Assembly: GCA_038363925.1 (NCBI GenBank)
Contig: JAQQWL010000003.1
Span: 1,488,001-1,552,000, forward strand
Source: Apiospora phragmitis
Lineage: Eukaryota > Ascomycota > Sordariomycetes > Amphisphaeriales > Apiosporaceae
DNA length: 64,000 nucleotides
Direction: 5' to 3'
The notes under the pieces are model-generated. The model worked only from the letters and a program-made list of their open reading frames with translations, did not search any database and was not told the DNA's origin. Position numbers and translations under genes: made by a program. Below, piece after piece: positions 1,170-54,089 of this stretch. Numbering within the stretch: the first letter of the stretch is position 1; the number at the start of each line of letters is the position of its first letter.

Positions 1170-2981
1170 ACGTACTTTATAAATGAAGTAAATATATAAA
1201 TAAACTAAATACTTTCGCTATATTTTATTTAAATTGCCTTTATATTTAATTTCTTTTATAATATAATAGAGTCGGTATTTAAAAAGAGAAGTAAATGCAT
1301 TTAACTCTTTAAGCGCTTTAAAATAACTTAAAATTAAATCTCTAACGTATAGCTTTAATATATAAAGTTTTTTATATAACCCTTCGTAACTAAAGGCTCG
1401 GTCTCTTTATAAGACGCGAAATTTCTACGAAATCTCGGAAATTAATAAATTTAAAAGAAAGGGTAATTATAAGATATATAATGAATTTAAACTCGCGATC
1501 GTTTCTTATTTAATTTAACGGTATAAAAGATATAGCGAATCGACTACTTAATTAACGCGACGCGGGACGCGTCGGCGTTAATTAGGCTTCGAACTTCGTA
1601 CGATAATAACTAGACCTTTAAACGCGTTTTAATCGAAAAATCGATTATTAAAAAATCCTTTATAAAGATCCCGACGCGTATCGCGTATAATTTACTTTTA
1701 TATAAAATATAATTAATAAATATAGGATTTAAAAAGAGGATACTTATAACCTCGATAAGACCGGCTTTTTTATAAGTTAGATCTCGTTTAAAATAATTAT
1801 TATAACCTCCGATTAATACGAGAAGCCTAGGGTAATTTAATAAAAGAACCGGGAATAAGTTATAATTATTTAAAGCGTTAAATCGTACGGTTACGCTATC
1901 CCTTCGTATATTATATTTATTAGAAAAACGCACCTCTTTTTTTAATATAAAAATAGTTTATTATTAAAAGATTAAATAATCTTAATTATTAAAAACGGTT
2001 AAATTTTAAACGAAAATAACGAGGAATAAATTTAATATTTTAATAAATATATAAAGTTTTATACGAAAAGTATTTATTATTTATTAATCTTTAACGGCTA
2101 TAAGAATTATTACTCGATAACTTTTAAGTTTTATTATAAAAAGAACTCGATTATTATACTTTATATATTTTTTTATTCGTTATATAAGCTTTAAACTTTT
2201 ACTATCGGCTATTTTTATATATTAAAATAGTTATACGAGAAAGAAATCGAGCGTTTTATACGAGCGTATCTTATTTATATCTTAAAGGAGGACTTCTTAC
2301 CAGCGTTTTTAAAAACGTTCTAAGCGATTTTCACCGTTTTAAATATTTAAAGAGGTTTTCGAAAAGCAGGATTTATACCGTATAACCCGGAATATATTAT
2401 TTTATAATTAAATATAAAGCTATATACGCTGACGCCTCCGGCGACCTCTTTCGACTTATTTATACTTTAAGAATTAAAAACCTTAAATAATTTAATTAAA
2501 GCTTAATTTTAAACCGAATATATTAAAAATTAAATCGCGCGATATTAAAATAACTTTTCGATATTAATTTTAATTAAGTTTAATTAAATTATAAAAAATA
2601 TAACGCAAGTTATATACCGGCTCGCTTTATTAAAAGGTAAAATAATCGTATTAAAAAGGCGAATAAAATACTCAGCCGGCGCCGCCGTATAAAAAAACGG
2701 CTATTAAATAGAGAATTACTTCGTATATAAATTAAAAAGACTTATAATTTTTGAAAAATATTAATAAATAGTTATAAAATAAATGGCGTTAAAAGAATAA
2801 TCGTGTAAGGACGTTTAAGACGCGCTTATAACGCTATAGAATCTGCGGAGAGCCCGGGTATAATACTTGTACCTATTAGAATAATATAGAATTATCTAGA
2901 CATAAGGATTCCGATTAATTTTAAAATATTAAATACGTTATAATAAAATTAATTTATATTTAATTTATTTATAAGGTACGT
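1170..2981 (+). mobile_element. pogo/Fot1-type DNA transposon (family 5), decayed transposase on plus strand
   Basis: The element is flanked by TA (1168-1169 and 2982-2983). Its left end is a 9-bp cap ACGTACTTT followed by two 17-bp units, ATAAATGAAGTAAATAT and ATAAATAAACTAAATAC; the right end is the inverted cap plus one clear unit. The plus strand carries a RIP-broken DDE transposase with YNLDKTGFFIS near 1730-1770, corresponding to the NFDETGF signature of Fot1/pogo transposases. At 1812 bp it has the usual size for a complete Fot1-like element. The open frame on the opposite strand at 1610-1933 is only the antisense shadow of the catalytic region. It interrupts the minus-strand Gypsy element. 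Confidence 0.85.
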
Positions 2982-4010
2982 TAGAACTTTGTTTTAATAA
3001 TTTAATCGTTAATTTAACACGTCGACGCGACCGTTCTCGCTCCCCTTACGATGAATAATAATAAGGTTAAATTTTAATAAAAACTTAAAATATTATATTT
3101 ATCGTTTATTTAGTTTTTTAATAATAATAATAAACGTTATAAAGTTTTTATAATTAATATAAACTTTTACGGGCTTAATTATCACGTTAAAATAATATTT
3201 TTATTCTTTATAAGCCTTACTAATAATTAAGTTTTTTAAAAAAAAATACAACGGGCTGCGATTTTCCGTTATCGCTTTATTAACTTAACTACCCTCCGAC
3301 CGTATAGTTCGATACATCGGTTTCGATTTTAAAAAGTTTTATAAGGTCCGTTATATAAAGTATTAGTTCCTTAAAAATACGCTTTTTTAAGGCGCGGAAG
3401 GCTTCGTCTTTTTTTTCTATTTATTAAAATAGTTCTTCCTTTTTTATTAAGTTCGTTAAAGGTGTTATTAACTTATTAAACTTAGGAATAAAAATCCGGT
3501 AATAATTAACTAGTTTTAAAAAGGATTTAACTTTTATAGCGCTTAAAAGCGTAAGTTATTCTTTAATTATTAAAACTTTCGAAGGTTTTATCCGGATTTT
3601 TCCGGGGATATTATATATCTTATAAATATAACTAATCGCTAATAAAATTCGCTCTTCTTTAAATTAATTAATAAGTTAATGTTTTATAGCTTTTAAAGTA
3701 TTAACTTTATATACTTTTTATATTATCTTTTATTTTCGAAATAAATTAAGATATTATAGAGGTATATTATAACGAACTTATCGAGGTATTCGTATAAAAT
3801 ATAATTAATTATAATTTAAAAACTAGTTAATGCGTTAATTAAATTAAACGGTATAGCTTAGTATTTAAAATAGTTATACTTAATATAAAACGCGGTTTTT
3901 TACTTTTTTTTTTTACGAATTAAGTAATATATATTAAAGAGGTTAAATATTAAAAAGATCTTAACGTGTAATAGCTTATTTTATAAGTCGTTAATTAAAG
4001 GAAAAAGGTA
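2982..4010 (-). mobile_element. Gypsy-type retrotransposon fragment, RT and RNase H part
   Basis: This is the continuation of the fragment at 1-1169, separated by the pogo element inserted between them. On the minus strand, RT sequence is readable near 4000-3900 (INDLI..., then FNLFNIYYLI, the RIP-altered LDLRNAYHLIR region). The end of RNase H lies near 3050-3000 (ENGRVDVLNQR, from the common ENGRADALSRR). The upstream RT, protease and gag parts are absent: at 4010 the copy is cut by the pogo element at 4011-5692, and sequence beyond that element is unrelated. All frames are closed by RIP. Confidence 0.8.
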
Positions 4011-5692
4011 ACGTATCCTATAAGCGAATATCCTATATAAGCGAATGTCTCATTTTTTACACCCTTTTTAATAAAATATAAGTTAATTTTATTATAACGT
4101 ATTTAATATATTAAAATTAATCGGAATTTTTATTTCTAAATATTTCTATATTATTTTAATAAGTACGTATATTATACCCAGGTTTTTTACAGATTTTATA
4201 ACGTTATAAACGTGTTTTAAACGTTCTTATATAATTACTTTTTCGACGCGATTCGTTTTATAACTATTTATTAACGTTTTTTTTAAAACTATAAGTTTTT
4301 TTTAGTTTATATATAAAATAATTTTTTATTTTATAGCCGTTTTTATTTCGTACGACGGCGCCGGCTAAATATTTTATTTACTTTTTAAAGTATCGCGTTC
4401 TTACTTTTTAAAAGAGTAACTCGGTATATAATATATATTATAACTTTTATAATTTAATTAAAACTAATTAAAATAAATATCGGAAAATTATTTTAATACT
4501 GTACAATACGGTTTCGAACGTATTCGGTTTAAAATTAAGTTTTAATTAAATTGTTTAAAGTTTTTAATTCTTAAGGAATAAATAGGTTAAAAAACGTCCC
4601 CGGAGGTATTAAAATATATAGCTTTATATTTAATTATAAAATAATATATTCCGGATTATACGGGATAAGTCTTATTTTTCGAAAGCTTCCTTATATATTT
4701 GAAACGGTAAAAATCGCCTGGAACGCTTTTAAAAACGCTAATAGGAAGTCCTCTTTTAAAATATGGGTAATATGCGCCCGTATAAGATATTTAATTTCTT
4801 TCCCGTACACCCTTTTAATATATAAAAACAGCCGATATTAAAAAGTTAAAGTTTATACGACGAATAAGAAGATAAATAAAGTATAATAATCGAGTTCTTT
4901 TTATAATAGAGCTCGAAAGCTATCGAGTAGTGGCTTTTGTAGCCGTTTAGGACTAAGAGGCGATAACGACCCTTTATATAAGACCTAGTATATTAATTAA
5001 AGTATTGAATTTAATCTTTACTTTTTTTATTCGTAATTTAATTATTTTTAATAATTATGATCACTTAATTCTTTAATAATAAGCTGTTTTCGTATTAAAA
5101 AAAAAGGTACGATTTTCCGGTAAAGATAATATACGAAGGGATAGCGTAACCGTATAATTCAACGCTTTAAATAATTATAACCTATTTTCGGTTCTTTTAT
5201 TATATTACTTTAAGTTTTTTATATAAATTAAAAGTAGTAATAACTATTTAAAACGAGATTTAGCTTATAAAAAAACTAGTCTTATTAAAGTTATAAATAT
5301 TCTTTTTAAATCTCGTATTTATAAATTATATTTTATATAAAGGTAAATTACGCGCGATACGCGTCGAGAGTTTTATAAAAGACCTTTTAATAATCGATTC
5401 TTCGATTAAAACGCGTCCGGAGGTTTAGTTATTATCGTACGAAGCTCGAGACTTAATTAATACCGACGCGTCTCGCGTCGCGTTAACCGAGTAATCGATT
5501 CGCTATATCTTTAACGTTACTTATATAAAAAAGAAACGATCGCGAATTTAAGTTATTTTCTTTAAAAGTTAACTATATTAATATAATAAAAGAACGCGGT
5601 AAAAATAAAGCGTTACGCGAAAATATATAAAAGTAAGAAATTAAACCGTATAAGAAATTAAACCGTGTAAGAAATTAAACCGTGAGGTATAT
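4011..5692 (-). mobile_element. Chimeric pogo/Fot1-type DNA transposon (family 1 left end, family 2 right end)
   Basis: TA dinucleotides lie at both edges (4009-4010, 5693-5694). The left end is ACGTATCCT plus two 17-bp units of the ATAAGCGAATATCCTAT type (family 1). The right end, read inverted, is ATATACCTC plus three units of the ACGGTTTAATTTCTTAC type (family 2). A RIP-broken transposase lies on the minus strand, colinear with the copies at 21664 and 24616. The left flank is Gypsy RT; the right flank is not the expected Gypsy continuation. The ends and flanks together suggest that two different insertions recombined through their shared transposase region. At 1682 bp it is shorter than its relatives (1.81-1.86 kb). 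Confidence 0.8.
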
Positions 5693-5695
5693 TAA

Positions 5696-6188
5696 TATTA
5701 TAATACGTTTAAATTAATTACTACGTTATAAAATAAAAGCTTTAGAAATAACTAGACGGTTATTTTTATTTAATTCTACGCTTTAAGTGCTACCCCGCGG
5801 GGGACTAACTCGCCGATCGTAATACTATACCCCCTCTTTAAGGGTATACCCTTATACTTAGGGCGATAAACTCTTAATAATTATATAATTTATTTAAACT
5901 CGGTATAAAAAAACCTTAAAGCTTTTATATAAAGAATTAATCCGTATAAGGCTTTATTTATTTACTAGCGATCTTGCTTAAGTAATTAAAGAGAGCTCTT
6001 ATTCGATAAATATAAAAATTAAACCTATATCTCTTATTTAATAAGTATATTTAGTTATTATATTATAATACGTTTAAATTAATTATTACGCTATAAAATA
6101 AAAGCTTCGAAAATAACTAGACGGTTATTTTTATTTAATTCTACGCCTTAAGTATTACCCCGCGAGGGACTAACCCGCTAATCGTAAA
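5696..6188. repeat. Pair of ~129-bp direct repeats, possibly a TRIM-like mini retroelement
   Basis: Bases 5696-5824 and 6061-6188 are near-identical direct repeats, differing mostly by C/T and G/A transitions. Each begins TATTATAATACG and contains a GC-rich core (CCCCGCGGGGGACTAAC in the first). They are separated by about 236 bp without coding sequence. If RIP is undone at the ends, the repeat could start TG and end CA, as an LTR would. No primer-binding site or polypurine tract can be asserted. A degenerate tandem duplication is an equally possible reading. Confidence 0.35.
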
Positions 6189-6627
6189 TGTTAATAGTTA
6201 ATCAATATTAATATTTATTAAAATTAAAAATTAAAAAAGATATTTTTATAAAAACAAAAGAAGTTATTAATAAAAATATAAAAAGCTTATATTAATTTTA
6301 TTAAATAAAACTTTATATTATTATAAATATTAAAGTAATAATATAAAAATTAATTAGTTAATATATAATTATAACTTAATATATATTAATATGTTAAAAA
6401 AATATAAAGTCGTTGTTTTTATAACTACTCTTTTAATATTAATTAATATAATAATAACTTATTAAAAGTATATAATTTGATTTATACTTATAATAAATAA
6501 ATATATAGAAATAAACTTTCTCTCTTTTTATATTTAATTAAATAATTAATCTATTAATTTATCTACTATTAGACTTATATTTAATACTATTAAAGATAAG
6601 CTTTATTTAAAAAATAATATAATATTA
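6189..6627. other. Extremely AT-rich spacer without recognisable content
   Basis: Between the direct-repeat pair and the next transposon the sequence is almost entirely A and T, with very few C or G. I see no open frame, repeat or transposon end in it. It is probably an old, fully RIP-eroded repeat. Confidence 0.5.
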
Positions 6628-8431
6628 ACGTACGTTACTATATAATTAACCCCCTTAAAAATTAATAGTATAAATCGACTATTAACTTTAAATAGTAATC
6701 ATTTTTTAATTTTAAACTCTAATATAATCTCTTTTAATAATAGATACAATAGATCTTTTAAAATCCGATTCTTTAATTTTAACTTAATCTAGTCCCTCTC
6801 TTATACGTTGTATGCTTTTAATCTATATAAATTTCGAATTCGAACTAATCTATACCCTTCGCTTTTTTCGTAGCCTTACGAGCTCTAACTTCTCTTTTAA
6901 GGACTATAATTATAATTCCGTATTAATTAATAAATAGTTTTTCTTTTAATATCTTTTTTAAATCTTTTTAAACAGCTAGTGTTATATAATAAAGTCGCTT
7001 TAAATTAATATACTTTTTTAGTATTAACTATAATATACTATTAAATAAAAGAGTTTAAATAAGTATAAGGGCTTTATTTTAACTAGTTAAGGCCTGTGTT
7101 ATCTCTTCCGCTCGCTTTTAATTACTATTATCGAGTAAAAGAGGGCTAGTGAGTGGCTTAGCAACACATATAGGCTAAAGACCACTACCATGCTAACCAC
7201 CCTTAATATTCTAAGCTGATAAAGCCTTTTTACGAGCTCTAGTATAGTATATAAAGAAGTTTTATTTACTTATAAGGGCTAAATCCGTTAATAAAGGTAA
7301 GAAATTAATCTCTTTTTAATAATACGCTTTTATAAGGGTAAAAACCTTAATATTAAAGGGTTAAAAAACGTATAATAAATAAAGGGGTAAAAATAATAAG
7401 TAAGTATTATTTTAATAATAAAAGGATATAAAATCGTCGGTTATATAATTGCTATACTTATTTAAAATAAGTAAACGAGTATCCTTTAAATTATTTAAAG
7501 TGGTTTTTAATATAAAGACATCTTTAAGCTATTTAACAGCGATTTCGTTATTCGTTTAACTTTTATTACTTATATTAAACTTTTATCTTTTAAATTTATC
7601 GAGTTTTTAAGGGAACTATTACTCTTAGATCGATTTACCTTTATAAATTACTAAAGGAGGGATGACTCTATTAAGTACCGATATATATTTTAATATAATC
7701 GTTTAATACTTTAAATTAAGCTGTTTTTAATAAATAAAACGTAATTTCGAACTGCTTATTATAAGGCTATTACCTCTTTAACCTTTTAAAATACCGTGCT
7801 CGTTTATATTATACTTATTTTTAATTTTAATAACTTAAATTTAAAATAAACCTACTTTAATTAAAACTTAATTACTTTAATTAATACTTAATTAATACGC
7901 TAAGAGTCGATACGACGTTACTTCTTTATTCGTAAGGCTAGGTAATATCGAAAGAATAAATCTATCTAGTTTTTATTTAATGGCATAAGGTTATTATAAA
8001 GGGTTAAAACGCGTTAAGCTAGTTTCTTAATTTATATATATATTAATATAACGTTAAAAGCTTTTTAAACTAAAATCTAATTTATTAAATACTTTTTTTA
8101 AATTAAAGAGAGCTTTTAATAAATATATTTTAATTCTCGACGTAATTATCGGCCGTAAAGTCGATTAATAAAAGTAGACCGTGAAATACTCTAATAAAAG
8201 GCAGCCTTATAAGTAGATTTACCGCTTGCTATATTTTTTAAATAATAATAAAGATATCGTTTTAATATATAAACGCACTATTAATAAACTAATATATATT
8301 TAAAAGAATAAAATAATTCGGATTAGAATTCGTTAAGAAATCTCTTTTTAAATCGAAATAGCGGTGAATCGTGGTGGAGGTCGACAGGGGGGTCAATTAC
8401 AGGGGGGGGTCAATTATAAGGTGACGTACGT
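6628..8431 (-). mobile_element. pogo/Fot1-type DNA transposon (family 4), decayed transposase
   Basis: TA flanks at 6626-6627 and 8432-8433 bound 1804 bp. The ends match as inverted repeats. The better-preserved right end, read inverted, is ACGTACGTC followed by two 17-bp units, ACCTTATAATTGACCCC and CCCCTGTAATTGACCCC. The minus strand, with stops, reads as the C-terminal half of a Fot1-like transposase: LKDVFI, RLLILN, VFQPFNIKVF (from a VLQPLD-type motif) and RARKKALSAQNIKGG near 7190-7250. The right end is also the exact border between AT-rich DNA and the normal-composition gene island. It is less heavily mutated at the right tip than elsewhere. Confidence 0.85.
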
Positions 8432-8732
8432 TAATGTTCTAAATTTACTAACTAATTGGGGCTCACCGTGAGCCTAGCGAGCACTTGGTTCTTTCACATC
8501 TTATTGAAGAAGAAAAAAAGAATTATTGATGCGAATATGATCGATCTTAGAATTGTTCGGTTGAATACAGTAAACTCGCAGGATGGCAAGCATTTCTATC
8601 GATCTTGTCTATGTATACATCTCGTCTATGCCGTACATCTCGACGACAACACCATTAAGGCACTAAACCTCGCCGCCTCTAGCGGCATCTTTGCTCTTCT
8701 TTGTCTAATTATGCATCTTCTGTTCTAACCAT

Positions 8733-17960: not shown

Positions 17961-17991
<31 letters not shown>

Positions 17992-20988: not shown

Positions 20989-23900
20989 ACGGTGGAGACC
21001 GCCTTCGGGCCCTCCCCTGCTTCGGGCCCCTTATTAACTAGTTCGCTTAAATGAACCATTTTAATTTAACGTCGCCTTTTTAGCTCGTCTTTACTATAAT
21101 AACTATATAAGAACTAGCCTCGCTATTATTGCTATTACTCTCTTTATTAAGAGTATTTTTAACTTTATTAATAGTTAATTATATGCGTTATATATCTTTA
21201 ATTATTATAAACTTTAAATTTAAAATTAAATTAACCTTCTTTTATTTTTTTAACTTTATAACATTTAATTAAGCTTCGAGTACTTAAAACTATCTCTTTA
21301 AAATAATAATTTATATTTTCTACTTATTAAATACTTTTTAAACTTTTTAAAATAATTAACACTACGTAATTATAATTTTTTAAGAGATTAATAAGTTATA
21401 CTTATTTTTGAAATTTTATTAACTTTTTTAAAATCGATTAAATAATATTTAAACTACGAAAAGTATTTTAAAATATATAAAACGTTTTATTAAACTCGTT
21501 AAGTATTCTTTTAATAAGATTAATTATTATATAACTAGTGTTTTCGAGTAAATAAAAGTTTAATAATAGTTTTACTATATTTATTAAGTAAAGACCGGCT
21601 ACTTTTTAATTACTTTAAATATTTTTCGATATATTAATTTAAAACGGTTAAATTAAAAGGTTAACGTATCCCATAAGCGAATATCCTATATAAGCGAATA
21701 TCTTATTTTTTTATACCTTTTTTAATAAAATATAAGTTAATTTTATTATAACGTATTTAATATATTAAAATTAATCGGAATCTTTACTTTTAAATATTTT
21801 TATATTATTTTAATAAGTATACGTATTATGCCCGGGCTTTTTATAGATTTTATAACGTTATAAACGTGTTTTAAACGTTTTTATATAATTACTTTTTTAA
21901 CGCGATTTATTTTATAATTATTTATTAACGTTTTTTTAAAACTATAGGTCTTTTTTAGTTTATATACGAAGTGATTTTTTATTTTATAGCCGTTTTTTTT
22001 ATACGGCGGCGCCGGCTAAGTATTTTATTTATTTTTTAAAGTGTCGCGTTTTTACTTTTTAAAAGAGTAACTCGGTATATAATATACGTTATAACTTTTA
22101 CGATCTAGTTAAAGCTAATTAAAATAAACGTCGGAAAGTTATTTTAATACCGTACGATACGGTTTCGAACGTATTCGGTTTAGGATTAGGTTTTAATCGG
22201 GTTATTTAAAGTTTTTAATTTTTAAGGAATAAATAGGCTAAAAAACGTCCCCGGAGGTGTTAAAGTATATAGCTTTATATTTAATTATAAAATAATATAT
22301 TCCAGATTATACGGGATAAGTCTTATTTTTTAAAAGCCTCCTTATATATTCGAAACGGTGAAAATCGCTTAGAACGTTTTTAAAAACGCTAGTAGGAAGT
22401 CTTCCTTTAAGATATAGGTAATATACGCCCGTATAAAATATTTAATTTCTTTCCCGTACGCTTTTTTTAATGTATAAAAACAGCCGATATTAAAAGGTTA
22501 GAGCTTATACGACGAATAAGAAGGTATATAAAGTGTGATAATCGAGTTCTTTTTATAATAGAGCTCGAAAGTTATCGAGTAGTAGCTTTCGTAGCCGTTT
22601 AAGATTAAAAGGCGATAACGACCTTTCGTATAAAACCTAGTATATTAATTAAAATATCGAATTTAGTCCTCGCTTTTTTTATTTATAGTTTAGTTATTTT
22701 TAGTAATTACGATTATTTAGTCTTTCGGTAATAGGCTGTTTTCGTATTAAAAAAAGAGGTGCGTTTTCCCGGTAAAGATAATATACGGAGGGATAGCGTA
22801 ACCGTATAATTCGACGCTTTAAATAATTATAACTTATTCCCGGTTCTTTTATTATATTACCCTAGGCTTTCCGCGTTGATCGGAGGTAGTTACGATTATT
22901 CTAGACGAGATTTAGCTTATAAGAAAGCCGGTCTCGTTAAAGTTATAAATATCCTCCTTTTAAATTTCGTACTTATAAATTATATTCCGTACGAGGGTAA
23001 ACTACGCGCGATATGCGTCGGGATCTTTATAGAAGACTCTTTAATAATTGATTCTTTAGTTAAAACGCGTCCGGAGGTCTGGTTATCGTTGTATAAAATT
23101 AAAGGCCTAATTAATACCGACACGTCCCGCGTCGCGTAAATTAAATAATCGATTCGTTATATTTTTTATATTATTTAACCGGGGAAGAAACGATCGCGTA
23201 TTTAAATTAATAATATATTAAATAATCGCATTTTTTTCGAAATTTAAAAGCTTTCGAAAATTCGTAAATATTTCGCGTCGTACAGGTTAACTATTTCGTT
23301 TACGCTATAAGGTTTTCGATAAGACGTAATAAATTAATATAGCTTTTTATACGTTTAAAATTAAATCTTTTTAGAGCGCTTAAAACGTTAGAATTATATT
23401 ACTTTTTTTTTAAAGTTATAATATTTTCGGACGTAAAAGAATATAAAAAAAGGTTAAGGCTATAAAGAAATTTATGAAAGTAGGATATTCGCTTGTATAA
23501 GATATTCGCTTGTGGGATACGTTATAAGATATATAAAGTATAAAAAGGTAAAAAAAGCGAATATAATAACGGAATTATAAATATATAAAAATAGTTATTA
23601 TATAACTTTCGTAATTATTTATAACGAGTAGTCGATATTTTAAAGCGGTATTTATAACAAAGATCTTTTCGAGTTATTTAATAACCGTCTTATTTATTAT
23701 TTATTTATTCTTCGTTACGATAAACTATTAATTTTTAAAAGAAAACTTAAATTAAAATAAAATTATTATTATTAAATAGTTTTATTTTTAAAAATAATTA
23801 ATAAAAGTAATATATACCTTTAAATAAATGAAGTTTAAACATTTAAACCTAGTTATTATTTTTAAATAAACTCGTTTTTAATATCATCGAGTATTAAACT

Positions 23901-24556: not shown

Positions 24557-24615
24557 TATATAATAGTTTTAATTAATAAAGTACGTTTTTTTAATTAAAT
24601 ACTAATTTTTATATA

Positions 24616-27326: not shown

Positions 27327-29139
27327 ACGTATCTCATAAAAGAATGTTTTATATAAGCGAATGTCTTATTCTTTTATACCCTTTTCGATAAAATATAAGT
27401 TAATTTTGTTACAACTTATTTAATATATTAAAATTAATCGGAATCCTTATTTTTAAATATTTCTATATTATTCTAATAAGTACGCGTATTATGCCCGGGC
27501 TCTCCGCAGATTTTATAGCGTTATAAATGTGTCTTAAATATCCTTATACGATTACTCCTCCGACGCGATTCGTTTTATAATTATTTATTAACGTCCTTTT
27601 AAAATTATAAGTCTTTTTTAGCTTATATACGAAGTAATTTTTTATTTTATAGCCGTTTCTTTTTCGTATAGCGGCGCCGCTTAAATATCTTATTTACTTT
27701 TTAAAATATCGCGTTCTTACTTTTTAAAAGAGTAACTCGGTATATAATATAGGTTATAGCTTTTATAATTTAATTAAAACTAATTAAAATAAATATTAAA
27801 AAGCTATTTTAGTACCGTATGATATAGTTTTAATCGAGTTGTTTAAAGTTTTTAATTCTTAAGGAATAAATAGGCTAAAAAACGTCCCCGGAAGTATTAA
27901 AATATATAGTTTTATATTTAATTATGAAATAATATATTCCGGATTATACGGGACGAGTTTTATTTTTTAAAAGCCTCTTTATATATTCGAAATAGTAAAA
28001 ATCGCTTAGAATGGTTTTAAAAACGTTAATAAAAAGTCCTCCTTTAAAATATAAGTAATATACGCCGGTATAAAACATTTAATTTCTTTTTATACGCCTT
28101 TTTTAATATATAAAAACAGTCGATATTAAGAGGTTAAAGCTTATATAATAAATAAGAAAATATATAGAGTATAATAATCGAGTTCTTTTTATAATAGAGC
28201 TCGAAAGTTATTAAATAATAGCTCTTATAGCCGTTAAAAATTAATAAACGGTAAATATTTTTCGTATAAAACTTTATATATTTATTAAAAGTATTAAATC
28301 TGATTTTTACCTTTTTTATTTATAATTTAATTATTTTTACTAATTACGATCACTTAGTCTTTTAATAATAAGCTGTTTTTATAGTAAGAAAAGAGGTACG
28401 TTTTTTTAATAAAGATGATATACGGAGGGGATAGCGTAACCGTATAATCCGACGCCTTAAATAATTATAACTTCCCGGTTCTTTTACTATATTACTTTAG
28501 GCTTTCCATATCGATTAGAAATAGTTATAATTATTTTAAACGAGATTTAGCTTATAAAAAAGCCGGTCTTATCGAAGTTATAGATATCTTCTTTTTAAAT
28601 CTCGTATTTATAAATTATATTTCGTATGAAAGTAAACCACGCGTAATACGCGTCGGGATCTTTATAAAGGACTCTTTAATAATCGACTTTTCGGTTAAAA
28701 CGCGTCCGGAGGTCTAATTATCGTCGTACGAAATTAGAGGCCTAATTAACGCCGACGTATCCCGCGTTATATAAATTAAGTAATCGATTTGTTCTATTTT
28801 TTATACTACTTAATTAAGAAGGAAACGATCGTGTATTTAAATTAATAATATATTAACTAATCGTATTTTCTTTAAATTTAAAAGCTTTTAAGAATTCGTA
28901 AGTATTTCGCGTCGTATAGGTTAATTATTTCATTTATGTTAGAAAGTTTTCGATAAGACGTAATAAATTAATACAGCTTTTTATAAGCTTAAAGTTAAAT
29001 CTTCTTAAAGCGCTTAAAGCGCTAGAGTTATATCACTTTCTTTTTAAAGTTATAATATTTTCGGACGTAAAAGAATATAAATAAAGGTTGAGGCTATAAG
29101 GAAATTTATGAAAGTGGGACATTCGCTTGTGGGATACGT
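27327..29139 (-). mobile_element. pogo/Fot1-type DNA transposon (family 1), RIP-mutated
   Basis: The element is 1813 bp between TA sites (27325-27326, 29140-29141). The left end is ACGTATCTC with units ATAAAAGAATGTTTTAT and ATAAGCGAATGTCTTAT. The right end, inverted, is ACGTATCCC with one unit ACAAGCGAATGTCCCAC. The transposase is on the minus strand, colinear with the family 1 copy at 21664, with a deletion of a few dozen bases near 27835. It is inserted into family X copy 1; the flanks rejoin cleanly. Confidence 0.85.
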
Positions 29140-29890: not shown

Positions 29891-32526
29891 TATTATAAAA
29901 TTAATATTATTATTACGCTTAATAGATTTCTTTTTTTATTTTACTTATTTTAATTACTAAATATATTAGTTTATTTATTATTAATGCGTACGTATTTAAA
30001 AGAAATCGAGTTATTTATTAATGCGTTAAAATTTATATTATAAAGGTAAAATTCTTTATTACTTTTAAAGCCTCTTATTTTATTATTTTTATAAAAATTA
30101 ATATTAAATTTAATTTTAACGTATTTGATTTAATACTTTATTATTTAAACGAGGTAATTTAAAAGTTAAATATACGTTTTTACACGTTTATGTTTATTTT
30201 ATAATATTTAAAAATAACTAATATTTATAACATTTAAACGTTATTTAACCCTTAATAAATAATTAAATACTCATTTCTTATTAAAATTAAAGTTTCTACT
30301 TATTAAAACTCTTTTTAACGTTAGTTTTAAATATTATAAATTAAATAATAAAAGATATAACGTACCTCACGGTCTAATTTCTTACTTTTTTTATTTTTAC
30401 GTAACGCTTACTTTCACCGCGTTCTTTTATTATATTATTATAACTTAGTCGGCTTTTAAAAAAAAAGTAACGTTACTTTAATATTATAAGCGCTTTAAAA
30501 CGATTTAAAATTAAATATATAATATACGGTTAGAATATACAATATTTTACGAAAAACCTTTTCTAATCGTCGGTATAATATCATTTTAAAATTTAATATT
30601 TAATTATTAATATAAAAGCTTATTATTTTTAAAGAGGAGATAATTATAAAGTATATAAATAATTTATATTCGCGATCATTTTTTATATATATATATAATG
30701 TTAAAGATATAGCGAATCGATTACTCGATTAACGCGACGCGAGACGCGTCGGCGTTAATTAAGCTTCGAGCTTTATATAATAATAACTAAACTTCCGGAC
30801 GCGTTTTAATTAAAGAATTAATTATTAAAAGGTTTTTTATAAAGATCTCGATGCGTATCGCGTATAGTTTACCTTTATACGGAATATAATTTATAAATAC
30901 GAGATTTAAAAAGAAAATATTAATAATTTTAATAAAACCGGCTTTTTTATAAATTAAATCTCGTTCGAAATAATTATTACTACTTTTAATTAACATAAAA
31001 GGCTTAAAATAATATAATAAAAGAACCGGGAATAAAGTATAATTATTTAAAGCGTCCGATTATACGGTTACATTATCCCTTCGTATATTATTTTTATTTA
31101 AAAACGTACCTCTTTTTTCAATATAAAAATTTATTACCGAAGGACTAAGTAATTATAATTATTAAAAATAACGAAATTACGAATAAAAAAGCGAAAACTA
31201 GATATAATACTTTAATTAATATATTAAGTTTTATACGAAAGGTTATTATCGTTTTTAAGTTTTAAACGGCTATTAAAATTATTACTTAATAATTTTCGAG
31301 CTCTATTATAAAAAGAACTCGATTATTATTTTTTATATGTTTATTTATTTATTATATAAGTTTTAACCTTTCCATTTTAATTATTTTCGTATATTAAAAA
31401 AAGTTATAGGAAAAAAATCGAGGGTTTTATACGGGCGTATATTATTTATATTTTAAAAGAAAACTATTTATAAACGTTTTTAAAAGCGTTCTAAGCGATT
31501 TTTATTATTTTAAATATATAAAGAGGTTTTTAAAAGATAAAACTCGTTTTATATAACTTAAAGTATATTATTTTATAATTAGATATAAAGCTACGTATTT
31601 TAATACTTCCGGGACTTTTTTTAGCTTATTTATTCCTTAAAAATTAAAAGCTTTAAGTAATTCGATTAAAGCTTAATTTTAAACTAAATACGTTTAAAGC
31701 CGTATCGTATAGTTTTAAAATAGCTTTCCGACGTTTATTTTAATTAAGCTTAATTAAATTATAAAAGGTATAACGCAGGTTATATACCGGCTCGCTTTTT
31801 AAAAAGTGAGGTAAACGTATTACGAGAAGTAAATAAAATGTTTAGCCGACGCCGCTATATTAAAAAACGGTTCTAAAATAAAAGATCAGTTTATATATAA
31901 ATTAAAAAAGACTTATAATTTTAAAAAAACGTTAATAAATAGTTATAGAATAAATCGCGACGGAGTAGTAGTCGTACAAGAAGGCTTAAAACACGCCCGC
32001 GACGCTATAAAATCTACGAAGAGCCCGGGCATAATACGCGCACTTATTAAAATAACGTAAAAGTATTTAATAAAAACGATTTTAAATAGTTTTAATTAAT
32101 TTTAAACGTTATAATAGAATTAACTATATATTATTACACGACGTTTAAAAAAATAGGAAATTAAATCGTGTAAGAAATTAAACCGTGTGGTATATTAAAG
32201 AAATAACTTATAAAATAACTTTTATATATAATTAAATATATATTTCAAAAAACGCTAACTTACTTTTTTTAAATCGTTAAAGAGTTAAAAAATCGCGAGT
32301 TTAATTTAAACGATATAAAATAAAAAAGTAAAAATAAAAGTTTATTAAAGCGAAAAGCTACTAGTAAAAAGGGCTATATTATTTATAAAGAAATAAGTTA
32401 TAATATATAAATATATATAATAAAATATAAATTTAAGTAATAAATTAAATAGCGAGTGATTTTAATGAATTTAAAGCGTTACAGTTAAACTGTTTTATAT
32501 AGAAATATAAAAATATAAATTATTTA
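29891..32526 (+). mobile_element. pogo-type transposon family X, copy 2 (partial, plus strand), split by a nested element
   Basis: Bases 29893-30359 and 32196-32526 carry plus-strand transposase sequence of family X: the segment after the DDE core in the first part, and the zinc-knuckle-like tail near 32340-32440 in the second. It is interrupted by the family 2 element at 30360-32195. No N-terminal part or terminal repeat is found, so this copy is truncated. Its neighbours on both sides are family X copies in the opposite orientation. Confidence 0.6.
30360..32195 (+). mobile_element. pogo/Fot1-type DNA transposon (family 2), RIP-mutated
   Basis: The element is 1836 bp between TA sites (30358-30359, 32196-32197). 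The left end is ACGTACCTC plus one unit ACGGTCTAATTTCTTAC and a T-tract. The right end, inverted, is ATATACCAC plus ACGGTTTAATTTCTTAC and ACGATTTAATTTCCTAT. The transposase lies on the plus strand; the minus-strand open frame at 30787-30996 is its antisense shadow. Near both ends it shares the internal segment GCGTTACG...CGCGGT with the elements at 24616 and at the right half of 4011-5692. Confidence 0.85.
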
Positions 32527-33956: not shown

Positions 33957-33961
33957 ACTAG
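33957..33961. repeat. Target-site duplication ACTAG, left copy
   Basis: ACTAG lies directly before the TG of LTR1; the same five bases follow LTR3 at 46900-46904. Family X copy 1 has a matching AACTAG at the equivalent position (29341-29350 region), so this is the original target sequence. Confidence 0.8.
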
Positions 33962-39919: not shown

Positions 39920-42900
39920 TTTTAATTATTTTTATTTTTATAAGTTATTATTTAAACCTTTAAATAATAATATTATAAGAATTATATCTATATTTAGCCT
40001 TAATAATATTATCCGATAAGGAAAGGCTTTTATTACCACCTTTAATACCTCTTAATGGGACCTTATTATAAATATTAATAGTAATAATAATAATAACGAG
40101 CCTATACGATAAACGTTAGCTAAGCGAATTAAAGAACTTGAACAAAAAAGTACTAACTATTAGTATTACTATATTAAGCTCGAGAAAAAGCGTAACGAGT
40201 TCTTAACTAAAAATATTTTAAAATAAATACCTTATAATATTAATAAATTATGCGAAAAAATACGTTTCTTTTATATAATTATTAATATTATTTAAACTTT
40301 TATTATATTAAAAAAAAGTATAAAGATTAATACGTTAACCCTTTTTAATGGAATAAGCGGAAACTTTTAAAGCTTTTTTATTTAAGTTAAAACTTATTAA
40401 CGGTTTTATAAAAAAACGTTTTAAAACGTTACTTAACGAGTTATTTACGCCGTCTCGTTTTTTAAAAATAAAATACTCGTTTAATTCGAACCTTATTTAA
40501 ATAAACTCGTAAAAAATAATTAATAAATTAAGCTATACCGTATAAAAATATAACGTATTTTTAAAAGTTACGACGGCTTTAAATAAGCTTTTAAATTACT
40601 TTTTTAAGACCTCGATAAAAAGCGATAAGTAGAAAAAGAATTTAAAACTTTTAAATAAAAAGGATTAGCCGTTTTTTATATAGCCGAGTTTTAATATATT
40701 ATAATTCGATTAAATTATACCGAAATTATAAAAATTATAATATATTATTAAAAATTAAAAGATAATATTAAAAACAAGCTTAGCCGGCTCGACGCTCCCG
40801 GTAGTTTTTTTTCGTATATAAAGCTTATTATTAAGATCGATACTTATATATACGAATAACGCCGCGAGAAATAGGGCGGACCCTAGCGGTAAATTAATTA
40901 AACCTAAACTAATACGGGGCGACCACGTTAATATAACTATATACCGCTTAAAAATATTATAATATATAATTATTATAATAAGCCTATAAATTTTAATGTT
41001 ATTAAATATGATAAATAGAATAAAAAATTACGTAATATTTATTATAATTATTAAAAACTAGGATATTACGCTCGAAAATATTAAATATTAAAAAAAAACT
41101 TTTAATAAGTTTTAAAAAAATAATACGTTAACGTTATTAAAATAAAAAACACCTTTATAATAACTATTAAAAATAATAACGTTATTATTAAATATAGTAA
41201 TTTATTTTAAATAGCTTGCTATAATAATAAGTATACTTTTTATTTAGCAAATAAAAAAGGTACCGGATAATTCTTTAAAACTTTGAAGGGTAAAGAAGAT
41301 TATAATTGAAACGTCGCGATAATATGAAAAGAATAACCCCCCCTTTATAATAAAAATAATAATTTAATAAATAATATTATAAACTAATTAAAGTAATTAA
41401 TAAATTACGAACGTTTAATAGGTATATTAATAAATAAATTAATAAACGAGATTACTAAATTTAAAAACCTTAAAACTAACGGGTAATTAATTATCTTTAA
41501 TATTTTTTACCCCGACTCGAAATACTTACGCTAAATATTTATTACGGCCGGCTTTAATTAAATAATCTACGGTAACTACGTAATAAAAAATAACTTATAA
41601 ATCTCCCCCATTTATAAAAAATACTTTACATTTTTATAAATTTTATATATATATAATATTTATATAAAACACTTTGTAAAGAAACTCGAGCACGAGTAAT
41701 TCCCTTAAAAGATCGGTAAGTGACCTATTATATAACCATACCCGGATTATATTATTAAAAAAATCCGAACGTCGATCCTAAATAAACGACGCGCGTACCT
41801 ATTAATATAAAAAGATTTATAGTAGCTATAATAATACTACTTAAAAAGACGAGATTAAAAAGAATACTTTAAAAACTAATACTTTAAATACGCTTAAAAA
41901 AAATCGCGAGTTTATAAACGTTTAAAAGAGAGCGCTTAACGCTTTTAAAACGTATAAATATATGCCCGATAAAAAGACCCTTTTAATATATTAAAGAATT
42001 TATAAAGCGTTTATAAATTATTATAAACTTAATAAACCTTCGAATTATTAAAAAAACCTAAATTTTAAATATTAAGATAATATTTTATATAGGGAAAAAT
42101 ATAAAAATACTTCCGTTAATATATTAAGAAATACTTTATAAAAAACGAAAAGAATAATAATAATAATATAAGGATCGATCGCGGGATATTATTAATAATT
42201 TATAAACGTAACGTTCGAGAAATAAACGCCGCTTATTATAAAAAAATAATAATAGGCGGACTAAAATAGGTCCTTATACTAAATAACGGATAATCGAGCT
42301 ATTTATAAGTATATTATATTAATACTAAGCGTAAAAAGAATCTATATTAAAGCGTTACTCGATAGCGGAACGTAAAGAAACTATATTTCATTACGAATCA
42401 TTAATTGCCTTAAATTCGAATAATTAAAGAAAAACGCCTTATACCGATTTAAAACCGTTAATAAAAAACTTATAACTTATAATAATAAAAAAGTATAAAA
42501 GAAAATTGCGAACTTTTTAATTAATATCGAAAAACGTTATAAATAAATTACGTATAATATTACGGATATCGTAAAATACGATATAATTTTAAAAATACTT
42601 TAATTACGCGTAAATAATTTTAAAATTAATTAAAAAATAGGCTAACTTTAATAAAATATATTAAAAAGAGGTTTAATTAATAAATAGCGGTTTAAAAAAT
42701 AACCCCTTAATAAACTTAAAATCTTTAAAATATATATTATTATTAAAAAGCTTAAGCCGAACGTTATAACGATTATATTAAAAAAGTATTAGTAATTCGA
42801 AACACTTTTTAATAAAAAATTAAAAATAGGCTTACCGCTTTATATACGGTAGGATTATAAAATACATTTATTTATACCTATATATAAATTTAATTAAAAG

Positions 42901-45900
42901 TATAAATAAACCTTAAAAAAATATTTTACGGAAAATCTTAAGAAAAAAGTTATCCGACTATTTATATTACTAGCAGGCTTCCTTATCTTCTTGGTTTTAA
43001 AAAAAAAGTAAAAATAAGAAACTTAAATAGCGTATATATATTAATTATTAGAAGCTTAACGAAATTATTATTAAAAACCGGTACCCCTTACTTTTAATTG
43101 GCGATTTACGGAATAAATTATTATACGTTAAAATCTTTATAATATTCGACCTCTTTAATATATATAACCTAATCCGAATTAAAAAAAAAAAAGTAGAAAA
43201 CCGTATTCCGAATTAAGTACGGTTATTTTAAATATTAAGCTATATTGTTTAATTTAATTAATGTATTAACTAGTTTTTAAACTATAATTAATTATATTTT
43301 ATAAGAATACCTTAATAAGTTTATTATAATATATTTTAGAGATATCTTTATTTATTTTGAAAACGATGAGTAGTATTGAGAATATGTAAAATTAATATTT
43401 TAGAAGCTATAAAACGCTAACTTATTAGTTAACTTAGAAAAAAGCGAATTTTATTAACGATCCGTTACTTTTATAAAATATGTAATATTTTTAGGCGAAA
43501 TTTGAATAGAACTTTCGAAAATTTTAATAATTAAAAAGTAGTTTACGCTTATAAGCGTTATAAAAATTAAATCTTTTTTAAAACTAGTTAATTATTACCG
43601 GATTTTTATTTCTAAATTTAATAAAATAGCGACACTTTTAATAAACTTAATAAAAAAGGACGAACTATTTTAATAAATAGAGAAAAAAAACGAGGCTTTT
43701 TATAATATTAAAGAATAAATTTTTAACGAATTAATACTTTATATAATAAACTTGTTTAAACTTTTTAAAATTGAAACCGATACATTAAATTATATAATTA
43801 AAAGGTAATTAAATTAATAAAATGATAATAAAAAATTACACCTTATCGTATTTTTTTTAAAAAAGTTTAATAAATTAGAATTAAATTATTAAATTTATAA
43901 TAAAAAATTAATAATTATTATTAAAACTTATAAAGAATAGAAATATTTTTTAACGAAATAATAAAACTAATTAAAATTTATATTAATTATAAAAGCTTTA
44001 TAACGTTTATTATTATTAAAAAATTAAATAAATAATAAATATAATAATTTAAATTCTTATTAAGATTTAACCTTATTATTATTTATTAAAAAGGTAACGA
44101 GAACGGTCGCGTCGATATATTAAACCGACGACTGAACTATTAAAAAAAAGTTTTATTCGAAACGCGAATAATCCTTATCTATAATTAAAATAATAACCTC
44201 GCGTTTTTAAAATAATTAAACGTTACGAACTATATTTAATATAATAATAATTAAGTTATTAAGTTTTAATAATTTAGCCAAAACCTCGACCCCGCGAATT
44301 ATTTTAAAAATCACTTCGAAAACCGTAACGGTCTTACTTTTTACCGAGATAAGATCTATATTCCTAAATGATACCGTAAAGATTTTATTTAAGAATTTTA
44401 TAAATATTTTATATATAAATATTATTAAATAATTCGATTATAAAAACCTTAAGTTAATCGTAATTAAAGTAATTAATAAATATAATTTTTATAATAAAGC
44501 TAAAGTTACTAAATATTAATTATATAGAGAATTATAACCGATCTTATTGTTAAATAAAGTATAAAAAATTATTATATTTAATTTTATTATTAAGCTATTT
44601 TTATTAAAAAACCCCTAACAAAGGTTAATTACGATAATATTTTAATAATTATGGATAAATTTATAAAATATATTTATTTCTTACCGTATAAAGAATTTAA
44701 TAATATTAATAACTTAATATATATATTTCTTTAAATAATCGTTAATTAGTACGGGCTATTCGAAATAATTATTTCTAATAAAAACAAATTATTTACCATT
44801 AAATTTTAAAGGTTATTTATAATATAATTTAAAATTAAATATAAATTATTTATAATTTATTACCTTTAAACGGATAAATAAACCGAGCGGATAAATTAAA
44901 CTCCAAAATAATACTTATATTATTATATTAATTATAAATAAAATAATTAAATATAATTATTATTTATAATTTAATTTATTTATAATAACGCGGATAATAA
45001 AGTTATATATATATTATTATTTCGAATAAATTATAAATATAATTTAAAAATTATTAGAAAATTAATAGAAGAAGAGTTCGTATTAATTATAATTATTTAA
45101 ATCGAAAAATTAAAAAAACTCTAAATTACGTTATAATAAAACCTTACTTTCTTTTAATAATAAATAAAAAAGTATACCGATTAAGTAAGGTTAAAAAGAT
45201 TAATTTTTAAAAAAAGAGAAAAAGTTTACTTTTTATAACGAAATATTAAAATAAAACGATTAAGCGATAAATTAAACTTTCAAAAAATAAAACTATTTAA
45301 AATCGTAAAAATTATTTTAAAAATTAATTACTAATTATTATTATTTAAAATAATATAAATATACCTTATATTTTATACTTTATTACTTAAACTAGCGGTT
45401 AAAAAAACTTTAATTAATATATATTTAAAAGTCGAAACGGATTAATATAAGTATAAAATTAATAAAATTATTAATAAAAAAAAATAAAACTTTTAATACC
45501 TCGTTTAATAAAAAAGTTACTTATTAAAAAATAATACTTAAAAATTTAAAAAGTATTTAGCGAACGCTACGAAAAAACTACGGGCGTTTAAAATAAAACG
45601 AGGTTAAAATTTATCACGTTTTAATCTATTATTTTAAACGCTTTAAAAAACTACGCCTTAATAACCGCCTCGGACTTAACGTGCTCAGCCGCTTTTAATT
45701 CGTTTAAAGAATAAAGACCACGCTTAGCCATTTTTACGCCACACGTCGCTAAAGAGTTCCGCTACTACCGAATTCGCTCTAGGCGCTAAAAGGCCTTTTA
45801 AGCCTCCCGATAAGCCTTCTCTAGAGCCGCGCTCGCCTCGCGTAAAGAATCGCTAGCCGCCTATTCCTTAAAGCATAAGCGACGGGACTTATCAATAACC

Positions 45901-46899: not shown

Positions 46900-46904
46900 A
46901 CTAG
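46900..46904. repeat. Target-site duplication ACTAG, right copy
   Basis: Same five bases as 33957-33961. Together they flank the whole LTR1-internal 1-LTR2-internal 2-LTR3 composite as a single insertion into family X copy 3. Confidence 0.8.
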
Positions 46905-48072
46905 CCGGAAATAATACTTATATTTTTATAAAAAGCTCTTTAATAATCGTATCGACGGTTTATTCCGGTTTTAAAGTCTAGGTTACGGTTAATAAAGCGT
47001 TTAACTTAATACTTGCCGACGCGGTAGCCGCGGCGCGATTTTAAAAGAAAATTAACTATATTTTTTATAACATTAATATTAAAAGGTATACTTTAAATAT
47101 TTAAATTATTTATATAATTACTAAACCCCTCTTTTTTAATTAAATTAAATTAATATTATAAATATCGTATTTCGCGTCTAGGTTCGGTACCGCGGAATCG
47201 GTCGTTTAGAATAGCTCGGAGGATGTCGTACACTTTTATAGCTGCTCTTTAGCTAATTTAATTTAGACTTTCTCGCGTCGATTAAATTATTAAAACGATA
47301 CGATCTTTTTTTTAATTAAATCGATATTATAGTTATAAAGATATTATATATTTAAGTTTAATTACGTAAATTAAAAAAAAAGTGGCCGACTTAATAATAT
47401 AATCGACTTAATAATATAGTCGATTTAATAATAAACCACGTTATATAGTTTATTATTTAATTTATAATATTTAAAATTAATATTAAAAAGCTTTTTAATA
47501 AATAAAAACGTATATTAAGTATAATAATATTAATAATTTTATAGTATTTTTTGAATTTAGTTAAAATATAGCTTTCGTAATCGTTTAAGATTAAAAGGCG
47601 ATAAAGGCCTTTTATTCGCGCTTTAATATATTTATCGAAATATCGAATTTAATTTAAGCTCGTTTTATTATTAATTTAATTATTAAAAGTTAGTTTAATT
47701 ACTTAATCGCCCGGTAAATTATATTCGCGAAATTAATTTATAACGTTATATTAATTTTAAACGATTAAAAACGACGAAATATATTAACTTTATAAACTAA
47801 TATATTTAATAGCTATTAACTATTTTTAATTATTAAATTAAACCGACTTTATTTTTTTATATTAATCGACGTATATTACGCTTAATATTAACTCGATTAT
47901 ATTTATTATTAAGCTAGTTTTATTAATATTTATATATTTTCTTTTAAAATTTTATATTTAACTTTAATAATTATATTAATGGTTTATTTAAGTTTTAAAG
48001 TTTAAGTTATAATAAATAAAGCGTGTAATTTAATATTTATTAACGCGGTCGTTTATAATAAACGCTATCCGG

Positions 48073-48661: not shown

Positions 48662-51074
48662 AAACGCTTTATTAATATAATAAATAATAGTATTTAATTT
48701 ATAAAGTAATAATAAAAGTAGTTTAATAAAAGAATTTGTATTATAAAGTTATTAAAGTTATTTACTTTCTTAATAAAATAAATTAATATACCTTATAAGT
48801 AAACTACATATATAAACGAGCTACGCATTTTTTATTATTAAGCTTTATAAGTTATAAATTAATTAAATATATTAATAATTATTATTTTAATAAGTACGCG
48901 TATTATGCCCGGGTTTTCCGTAGATTTTATAGCGTTATAAGCGTGTTTTAAACGTCCTTATATAATTACTCTTCCGACGCGATTTATCTTATAATTATTT
49001 ATTAATATCTTTTTAAAACTATAAATCTTTTTTAGTTTCTATATAAAATAATCTTTTATTTTATAGCCGTTTTTTTCGTACGGCGGCGCCGGCTAAATAT
49101 GTTATTTATTTTTTAAAATATCGCGTTCTTACTTTTTAAAAAAGTAACTCGGTATATAATCTATATTATAATATTTATAATCTAGTTAAAACTAATTAAA
49201 ATAAACATTAAAAAGTTATTTTAATATTATATAATACGATTTCGAACGTATTCGGTTTAAAACTAGGCCTTAATCGAGTTATTTAAAGGTTTTTATTTTT
49301 AAGGGATAAGTAGGCCGGAAGATATCCCCGGAGGTATTAAAATATATAGTTTTATATCTAACTGTGAAATAATATATTCCGGACTATACGGAACGATTCC
49401 TATTTTTCGAAAGCTTCCTTATATATTTAAAACGATAAAATCGCTTAGAACGTTTTTAAAAACGCTGGTAGGAAATCCTCCTTAGAGATATAAGTAATAT
49501 GCGCCTATGTAAAACCTTTAATTTCTTTCCCGTACGTTTTTTTTAATATACGAAAATAGCCGATATTAAAAGGTTAGAGCTTATGCGATAAATAAAAAAA
49601 TATATAGAGTATAATAATTTAGTTCTTTTTATAATAAAGTTCGAAAGTTATCGAGTAGTAGCTTTTATAGCCGTTTAAGACTAAGAGGTGATGACGATTT
49701 TTTATACGAGACCTGGTATATTAATTAAAGTATCGAATTTAGTCCTCGCCTCTTTTATTCGTGATTTAATTATTTTTAATAATTTCGATCACCTAGTCTT
49801 TCGGTAATAGGCTGTTTTTATATTAAGAAGAGAGGTGCGTTTTCTCGGTAAAGATAATATATAAAGGGATGGCGTAACCGTTTAAGCCGACGCTTTAAAT
49901 AATTATAACTTATTCCCGGTTTTTTTACTATATTACCTTAAGCTTTCCGCGTTAATTAAAAGTGGTTATAATTATTTCGAACGAGATTTAACTTATAAAA
50001 AACCTAGTCTCGTTAAAATTAAATATATCCTCTTTTTATATCTTATACTTATTAATTATATTCCGTACGAGAATAAATTATACGCGATACGCGTTAAAAT
50101 CTTTATAAAAGACTCTTTAATAATCGATTCTTTAATTAAAACGCGTCTAGAGGTCTAGTTGTCGTCGTATAAAGTTAGAGGCCTAGTTAACGCCGACGCG
50201 TCTCGCGTTACGTAAGTTAAGTAATTAATTCGCTATATCTTTTATATTACTTAGCCGGCAAAAAAACGATCGCGTATTTAAATTAATAATATATCGAATA
50301 ATTATTTCTTTTTTAAAATTAGAAAGCTTTTAAAAGTTTATAGAGATTTCGAATTATAATCGAATTCCGCGTCGTCGGCTACGTAACGTCGATTTTAAAA
50401 TATAATATATCGCTATAACTTTTTATATATATAATTTCGAGTTATTTTAAAACACTTAAAGCGTTAAATCTTATTTTTTAATTCTATACTTATTAAAGGA
50501 GAAAAGTTAGTATAAAGTTAATTATAAAAAAGTTAATTAAAAATACGTAGCTCGCTTATATACGTAGCTCGGTTATAAAGTATATTAATACTTAAATTAA
50601 TTATTAAAATAAAAAGTATTTATATAAAATATATAAAAAATCGCTTATAATTATATACTTAATCTCTTCTTTTTTAATAATAACCCTATTTATTATTATT
50701 TAATAATAATTATATAAACATTATTAAGCTTAATTAATTATAATTAATATTACTCGCCTATGCACCGCTAAGTTACTTAAGGCTTCCTTACTAAGCTGCG
50801 TCTCGTATCTTATCGTCACGTGACCAAGGTCGGTCGTCTAGCCTAGCCTGTCTGTCCGGGTCTGTCTGTCTAGATCTGCCTGTCTAGATCTGTCTGTCCG
50901 CCGTTCGCTTGGCTTAGGTCTCTCTTTTAATGACTATCGTCGTGCCCTTAATAGTTGGATCCGTTATCGCCGGTGGGTCGTAAGCGCTAATACTAGGTTT
51001 CGTATATTTCTCGAGTTATTATAGCGCCGCTTCGTAAGTGAACCTTAGTCGCATGGTTAAGTTAAGTCGTAACA
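48662..51074 (-). repeat. Gypsy-type LTR5 (minus orientation), split by a pogo element
   Basis: Its two parts, 48662-48785 and 50586-51074, are separated by the pogo element at 48786-50585. The outer end reads inverted as TGTTACGACTTAACTT. The outer 300 bp (about 50750-51074) are hardly RIP-mutated and contain a small GTCTGTCTAGATCT-type minisatellite at about 50842-50895. No matching 5-bp target duplication is seen around the LTR pair. Confidence 0.6.
48786..50585 (-). mobile_element. pogo/Fot1-type DNA transposon (family 3), RIP-mutated
   Basis: The element is 1800 bp between TA sites (48784-48785, 50586-50587). The ends are ATATACCTT with units ATAAGTAAACTACATAT and ATAAACGAGCTACGCAT on the left, and inverted ATATACTTT with ATAACCGAGCTACGTAT and ATAAGCGAGCTACGTAT on the right. 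The minus-strand transposase is colinear with family 1 at the protein level but closed by stops. It is inserted in LTR5. Confidence 0.85.
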
Positions 51075-53960: not shown

Positions 53961-54089
53961 TATAATTTCAAGTTCCCAGCCGGCCCTCTCGGACAACATG
54001 AAGAAGTAAGCGTCATCCGTAATGTCTCATGTGCTCAGTTCTCATCCTCATATCTGATACACGGGTGCGTGCTCTAGGCTTTTCTAGGG

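Follow-up and report, generated by a model that had tools for sequence, protein, structure and literature searches.

Shared cores beside divergent terminal sites and first helix-turn-helix segments suggest recognition-module turnover in Fot1/Pot2-type pogo transposons of Apiospora phragmitis

Background

Several fungal transposons carry short direct repeats within their terminal inverted repeats. In Verticillium dahliae, DAHLIAE1 and DAHLIAE2 have ACGT tips, inverted repeats of 41-62 bp, direct repeats of 15-17 bp and a TA target, and DAHLIAE2 has three copies of a 17-bp unit at one end and two at the opposite end (PMC3441728). The inverted repeats of Trem (Paracoccidioides), Aft1 and Tan1 hold two 17-bp direct repeats (PMC2836289), while for the Sclerotinia elements Mariner-n_SS ACGT tips are described and no direct repeats within the inverted repeats are reported (PMC4188875); all three reports are cited here for the portions covered. 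In this study, the transposons in a stretch of 64,000 nucleotides of the A. phragmitis genome (C3:1488001-1552000 in 52.7 Mb and 19 contigs; "the window" throughout) were compared with each other and with their relatives in the same genome. They are Fot1/Pot2-type pogo transposons, whose ends consist of a TA target, a short tip and an array of tandem units. Their end layout is that of DAHLIAE1/2, for which the covered portions give no comparison of units with transposase segments (PMC3441728). Trem, Aft1 and Tan1 have the same domains, with no exchange reported in the covered portions (PMC2836289), and Mariner-n_SS shares tips and domains but is reported without direct repeats (PMC4188875). 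The layout is thus already known, and the original prediction from this stretch, which knew of no earlier description, is contradicted by print (PMC3441728, PMC2836289). No description of a joint turnover of terminal array and helix-turn-helix (HTH) was met, in a survey that targeted domain exchange little and whose scope stopped short of the primary papers on classical elements.

Results and discussion

A shared core with divergent ends

Relatives were collected by a DDE_1 search of the genome, in which 150 of 376 candidates were scored and 70 loci (L numbers) taken. The genome is mutated by repeat-induced point mutation (RIP), and the AT-rich blocks of the window (1-8434 and 20986-54000, about 24% G+C) are strongly marked by it: TpA/ApT is 1.36 and 1.33 in these blocks versus 0.77 and 0.75 in the G+C-rich blocks, and (CpA+TpG)/(ApC+GpT) is 0.16 and 0.20 versus 1.17 and 1.18. 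Since RIP makes transitions only, transversions alone were scored in the close comparison, with one row per family (eight rows) for the rates. The copy at 24616 was excluded from 5' comparisons because its 5' end is undefined, and L053 and the copy at 48786 were aligned but kept outside the rates.

Compared in this manner, the interiors of families 1, 19, 5, 61, 65, 3, 57 and 2 lie only 0.03-0.08 apart, as against 0.38-0.40 to families X and 15. In the core (positions 360-1690 of the L019 element), divergence among families 1, 2, 3, 5 and their relatives is 0.01-0.04, so that these four, predicted to be divergent families, are not deeply so, with cores 1-4% apart. The terminal units differ by a mean of 3.06 transversions in 17 positions (18%) versus 0.79 per 17-bp window of the body, and their divergence tops 95% of the body windows in 9 of 28 pairs; within a family, units differ by 0-1 of 17 transversions. 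Along the element, divergence is 0.1-0.3 up to base 320, drops to about 0.03 midway and reaches 0.14-0.18 in the last hundred bases or so. Over the eight family rows it is 3-4% in the core and 0.30 in the leader, a rough rate because this non-coding stretch aligns poorly, and about 19% in the segment encoding the first HTH (HTH1). By codon position, the HTH1 segment shows 0.20, 0.13 and 0.26 and the catalytic part 0.03, 0.02 and 0.04. Third codon positions are more divergent in the HTH1 segment than in the core in all 28 pairs (25 of them at p<0.001, the pairs being non-independent), and at silent sites the segment has diverged about five times as far as the core. The best single breakpoint has a median of 311 (quartiles 274-340, range 223-378), at about codon 74 and early in the stretch encoding the second HTH (HTH2). 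As both silent and non-coding sites are raised, mosaic ancestry is favoured over selection on the protein alone.

Units and HTH1 segments vary together in this clade. In linkage correlations over eight rows, which comprised 21 uncorrected tests, HTH1-segment distance followed unit distance (rho 0.61, p 0.002), with values of 0.59 (p 0.033) for the outer and 0.23 (p 0.11) for the inner half of the unit. Core and unit distances gave 0.06 (p 0.37), leader and HTH1 segment 0.47 (p 0.007), and 3' end distance correlated with neither unit nor HTH1 over the same rows. The three elements with GGTCTA-type outer halves grouped in 2 of 200 bootstraps of the interior comparison. L057 and the family 2 copy at 30360-32195 share the outer half ACGGTCTA and are closest to each other in leader (0.21) and HTH1 segment (0.16), but not in the core. 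At the other end, L067, L019, the element at 1170 and L057 have a common 3' flank inside the array (transversions 0-0.05), and yet the 3' unit is ACGGTCTAATGAACCAC in L057 and ACAAGCGAGTTTCCCAT in L019 despite their common core and flank. The 3' flanks of L061, family 2 and family 3 are of other kinds. Assignments of L057 to window family 2 and of L061 to window family 5 were rejected, DNA comparison showing relatedness only.

A second example is the pair L014/L015, in which divergence falls from 17-21% over the initial 300 bp to 2-9% in the middle and is 14-15% at the 3' end, and in which the units differ. In L021/L023, the leader (0.21) and silent HTH1 sites (0.14) are raised, with HTH1 protein and units hardly altered; as unit and protein are both kept, unchanged protein here goes with unchanged site. 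The pattern is mild in L002/L018 (leader 0.06, silent HTH1 sites 0.09 versus 0.01) and little or nil in L002/L007, L007/L018 and L001/L003. The pairs L033/L035, L033/L040, L001/L002 and L006/L013 were too diverged for such comparison.

Turnover of recognition modules and its alternatives

These comparisons make it probable that the recognition modules are renewed as a set while the core is held in common, a reading that is well supported by sequence comparison in one clade and one replicate pair (L014/L015). It was the common core of families 1, 2, 3, 5 and their relatives that moved swapping from an unlikely to the favoured explanation. The original prediction, that families diversify by swapping the iteron, would thus survive within clades, in the wider form of recognition-module turnover.

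As to route, direction and fitness reason of an exchange, we infer the following. The catalytic domain probably cuts at TA plus the short tip, with one to three sites of 15-17 bp behind it. Elements within a clade would be mosaics in which a shared core, made up of the catalytic domain, the C-terminus and the remainder of HTH2, is joined to differing recognition modules. One module would comprise the left terminal array, the leader and the first-HTH segment as a block, the other the array at the right end. The sites at the left end and the first HTH would travel jointly because they are adjacent; the right array would then be brought to match, perhaps via conversion between the inverted ends or repair from a related copy. 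Each switch would create a family without sites in common with its parents. Module switching of this kind, in which arrays at both ends and the psq-type HTH1 are replaced jointly and a nearly constant catalytic core is kept, may be a means of escape or re-specification of pogo elements in this genome, though this is slightly less likely than not. In bacterial type I restriction systems, specificity modules of HsdS are exchanged; there, too, a variable recognition part is joined to a constant catalytic part. HsdS is, however, an unrelated protein, and in the present elements a change of the protein demands a matching change of the DNA sites that the element itself carries.

Several observations weigh against this explanation. 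The same data fit an opposite mosaicism, in which old families kept their ends while gene conversion or gap repair between copies made the core uniform. The nearly star-like core (0.01-0.04) agrees with it, and we regard it as quite possible, although the common 3' flank beside different arrays needs conversion tracts that end close to the array. The deep comparison across families is weak or conflicting as well. In the set of 19 families, the distances of the DNA-binding and the catalytic domain correlate to the same degree with unit distance (rho 0.53 each). The partial correlation of unit and DNA-binding domain given the catalytic domain is 0.21 (p 0.008) in 19 families, 0.13 (p 0.16) in the 14 with 17-bp units and 0.18 (p 0.12) in the ten labelled "intact", while that of unit and catalytic domain given the DNA-binding domain is 0.21 (p 0.009) in 19 and 0.34 (p 0.003) in 14 families. 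A signal between inner half and HTH2 vanishes once RIP-damaged families are dropped, and RIP blurs the protein distances of the deep comparison. The predicted covariation of N-terminal domain and 17-mer is seen for the HTH1 segment within the clade, but the DNA-binding share across families is small or not significant.

The equal deep correlations are what plain vertical co-divergence offers in its favour, a joint drift of unit and transposase with no exchange. The RIP-immune comparison speaks against it: in the clade, unit distance is not mirrored by the core (0.06), and divergence at silent sites is about fivefold higher in the HTH1 segment than in the core, which leaves co-divergence unlikely. 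Another alternative without recombination is that sites and HTH1 alone were under strong diversifying selection. The raised first and second codon positions of HTH1 (0.20 and 0.13) speak for it, but the increase is no smaller at third positions (0.26) and in the non-coding leader (0.30), and in L021/L023 the leader and silent sites are raised although the HTH1 protein has hardly changed; we consider it rather improbable. That both ends are raised could also reflect mutation hot spots, for example through faulty repair after excision. This is very improbable, given that the raised stretch extends about 310 bp into the element, including coding DNA, and ends near one place, and that within any one family the units remain alike in concert (0-1 of 17 transversions).

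Terminal layout

All seven 17-mers of the original prediction were located without mismatch, at 4020 and 21673 (family 1), 5633, 5667 and 32170 (family 2), 50560 (family 3), 8406 (family 4), 1179 (family 5), 47399 (family X) and 20998 (family 7). Ends were scanned at all TA sites on both strands, with offset 9, two units at least 76% alike, unit G+C of at least 3, tips ACGT/ATAT/ACGG/ATGT/ACAT and periods 12 to 23. Period 17 yielded 11 hits (40 first-order shuffles: mean 0.025, at most 1) and the other periods none, save one hit at 21. Nine of the 11 are distinct ends (4011, 5692, 8431, 21664, 23522, 24616, 32195, 47441 and 50585); the other two are a shifted duplicate of 5692, at 5698, and a stray hit at 24499. 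The G+C filter removed two further ends, at 1170 and 27327. Without the tip filter there were 46 hits at period 17, against 2.2 on average and at most 9 in shuffles, and 12 at period 15, the shuffles being made for period 17 only. The predicted arrangement of TA, 9-bp tip and tandem 17-bp units is thus borne out, far above shuffles. An AT-rich low-complexity artefact, which the roughly 24% G+C of the element blocks might suggest, is refuted to near certainty by this excess and by G+C-rich copies bearing the same units.

A single unit is present at the ends 2981, 6628 and 30360, and the second unit matches the first at 14 of 17 positions at 8431 and 12 of 17 at 20989. ATAT and ACGT tips differ by RIP-type changes only; no ACGT-tipped copy of family 3 was seen. 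The elements and ends in the window are:

1170..2981, forward strand: family 5 element; left tip ACGTACTTT with two 17-bp units (1179-1212), one unit at the right end (2956-2972); degraded transposase with DNA-binding region at about 1283-1693
4011..4053, forward strand: family 1 end; tip ACGTATCCT with two 17-bp units; L067-like body to about 5555
5633..5692, reverse strand: family 2 end; three 17-bp units behind tip ATATACCTC
6628..8431, reverse strand: family 4 (Pot2-like) element; right tip ACGTACGTC with two units with C-tract, one unit on the left
20989..21031, forward strand: family 7 end; tip ACGGTGGAG with two degenerate 17-bp units (12/17 alike); nearest locus L024
21664..23522, reverse strand: family 1 element; two 17-bp units per end; 87.4% DNA identity to L067
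24616..24658, forward strand: family 2 end; two 17-bp units
27327..27369, forward strand: family 1 end; two 17-bp units
30360..32195, forward strand: family 2 element; one unit left, two right; ends paired by inspection
47382..47441, reverse strand: family X end; tip ACGTGGTTT with three 17-bp units; DNA-binding region at about 46910-47263; relative L014
48786..50585, reverse strand: family 3 element with ATAT tips and, at each end, two 17-bp units; 82.6% DNA identity to L070
52150..52190, forward strand: end of an eighth pogo family, absent from the original prediction; 9-bp tip AGCACCTTA with two 16-bp units

The family 5 element has units like those of L061 and a body closest to L057 (80.8%; L061 74%), and its 3' end (2930-2981) has lost the second unit and some flank. 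The family 4 element is 82.7% identical to L068 in DNA, and the eighth-family body (52150 to 53968) 75% identical to L011. Between 1526 and 5512, the family 5 and family 1 elements, lying in opposite directions, form inverted arms that are 77-86% complementary. A further family X unit remnant at 32669-32685 adjoins L014-like sequence. Within 34323-44855, two AT-rich stretches, at about 34323-38206 and 39627-43480, are alike and match flanks of L041, L063, L065 and L034; perhaps they represent a longer repeat family inserted twice.

The period was counted genome-wide in 59 copies (55 loci and four window copies; 118 ends, 18 families), with a small tie-break favouring 17; L031, L036, L038, L039, L041, L042, L047, L048, L049, L054, L060, L064, L065, L066 and L070 stood outside the count. 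A period of 17 scored best at 52 of the 74 ends in 13 families, one of 15 at 7 of the 8 ends in family 21, and one of 16 at all 36 ends in families 6, 11, 13 and 16; owing to its C-tract, family 4 gave 16 at 7 of its 18 ends. The prediction of exactly 17 bp consequently fails, as one transposase clade has units of 15-16 bp and the eighth family at 52150 has 16-bp units. The 15-16-bp families form one clade with support 0.995; deep branches are weak (0.449). Ends with two or three tandem units of 15-17 bp are confirmed, and one-unit ends exist.

ACGT outer tips fall in two groups of the transposase tree. They occur in families 1, 19, 5, 65, 2, X, 15, 4 and 7, with ATAT in family 3, but not in families 9, 33, 35, 51, 21, 11, 13, 6 and 16. 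Of 125 ends, 71 passed the tandem-start test, including 6 of 30 in family 6 and none in families 9, 11 and 13. The likeness of tandem units sets in after 7-9 bases at 35 of the 42 tandem ends of families 1, 5, 3, 2, X, 15, 33, 35 and 21, and elsewhere in families 19, 4, 7, 51, 6 and 16. In L051 (C8:1806700-1811300), 17-bp tandem units begin just 25 bases inside the tip.

Units were predicted to be unrelated between families, but they have a common register. Mean unit distance over 14 families is 7.50 versus 10.47 +- 0.15 when shuffled (0 of 2000 as low), and over the 12 tip-registered families 7.27 versus 10.48 shuffled and 10.49 rotated (0 of 2000 each); the register persists with one family per clade. 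Nearly all units have A at position 1; position 2 is C or T, and positions 15 and 16 are mostly C and A.

Identity of the elements and their putative sites

TA-flanked paired ends are present at 29 of the first 30 loci, where inverted repeats match over 24-59 bp, and were correctly found at 21 of 40 further loci; 17 of the latter gave no end pair, and L065 and L066 gave wrong pairs. L016 (C1:2341747-2345265), a DDE_1 element, has perfect inverted repeats of 40 bp and TA on neither side. HTH_psq and HTH_Tnp_Tc5 were both detected in L001 and L006, and the latter alone in L009. Neither was found at E 0.001 in L021 or the L016 piece, which align to the DNA-binding profile, whose seeds include both. 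DDE_1 was detected in L001, L009, L006 and L021, and the triad D161, D275, D311 is invariant among L001 and 20 relatives. L001 (family 4) is 50% identical to the P. grisea transposase Q01165 (P0097), which is taken here to be Pot2 of Pyricularia. A separate 2.2-kb pogo group with CCAT-type tips (L031, L033, L035, L038, L039, L040 and L045) has nearly unmutated copies, L031 and L045 being 98% identical; its DDE_1 match is in two parts, perhaps split by an intron.

The top structural match, 1hlv, is CENP-B, which shares two N-terminal HTH domains with these elements; a PDB sequence search found nothing. Each unit is most likely bound by one CENP-B-like double HTH, as judged from fold similarity, and the predicted role of units as transposase sites is supported to that extent by the double HTH and by the nearest solved structure, CENP-B with its box. 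The CENP-B box is also 17 bp, but the units are no closer to it than chance: against its core, NTTCGNNNNANNCGGGN, the mean best match is 5.74 of 9 versus 5.65 +- 0.15 shuffled (169 of 500 as high), and likeness to the box was rejected.

Conclusions

These comparisons bear on how a transposase and its terminal sites can change jointly without loss of function. If the module-switching reading is true, one core has given rise to many families without common sites. "Families" defined by their ends may have one body in common, and RIP masks common bodies and differing sites unless transversions alone are scored. Relatives with one core but different arrays and HTH1 segments provide matched pairs for direct tests and, as the outer half of the unit follows the first HTH, would, if this holds true, be natural matched pairs for a recognition code. 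Module turnover would be a way in which transposon families could split quickly.

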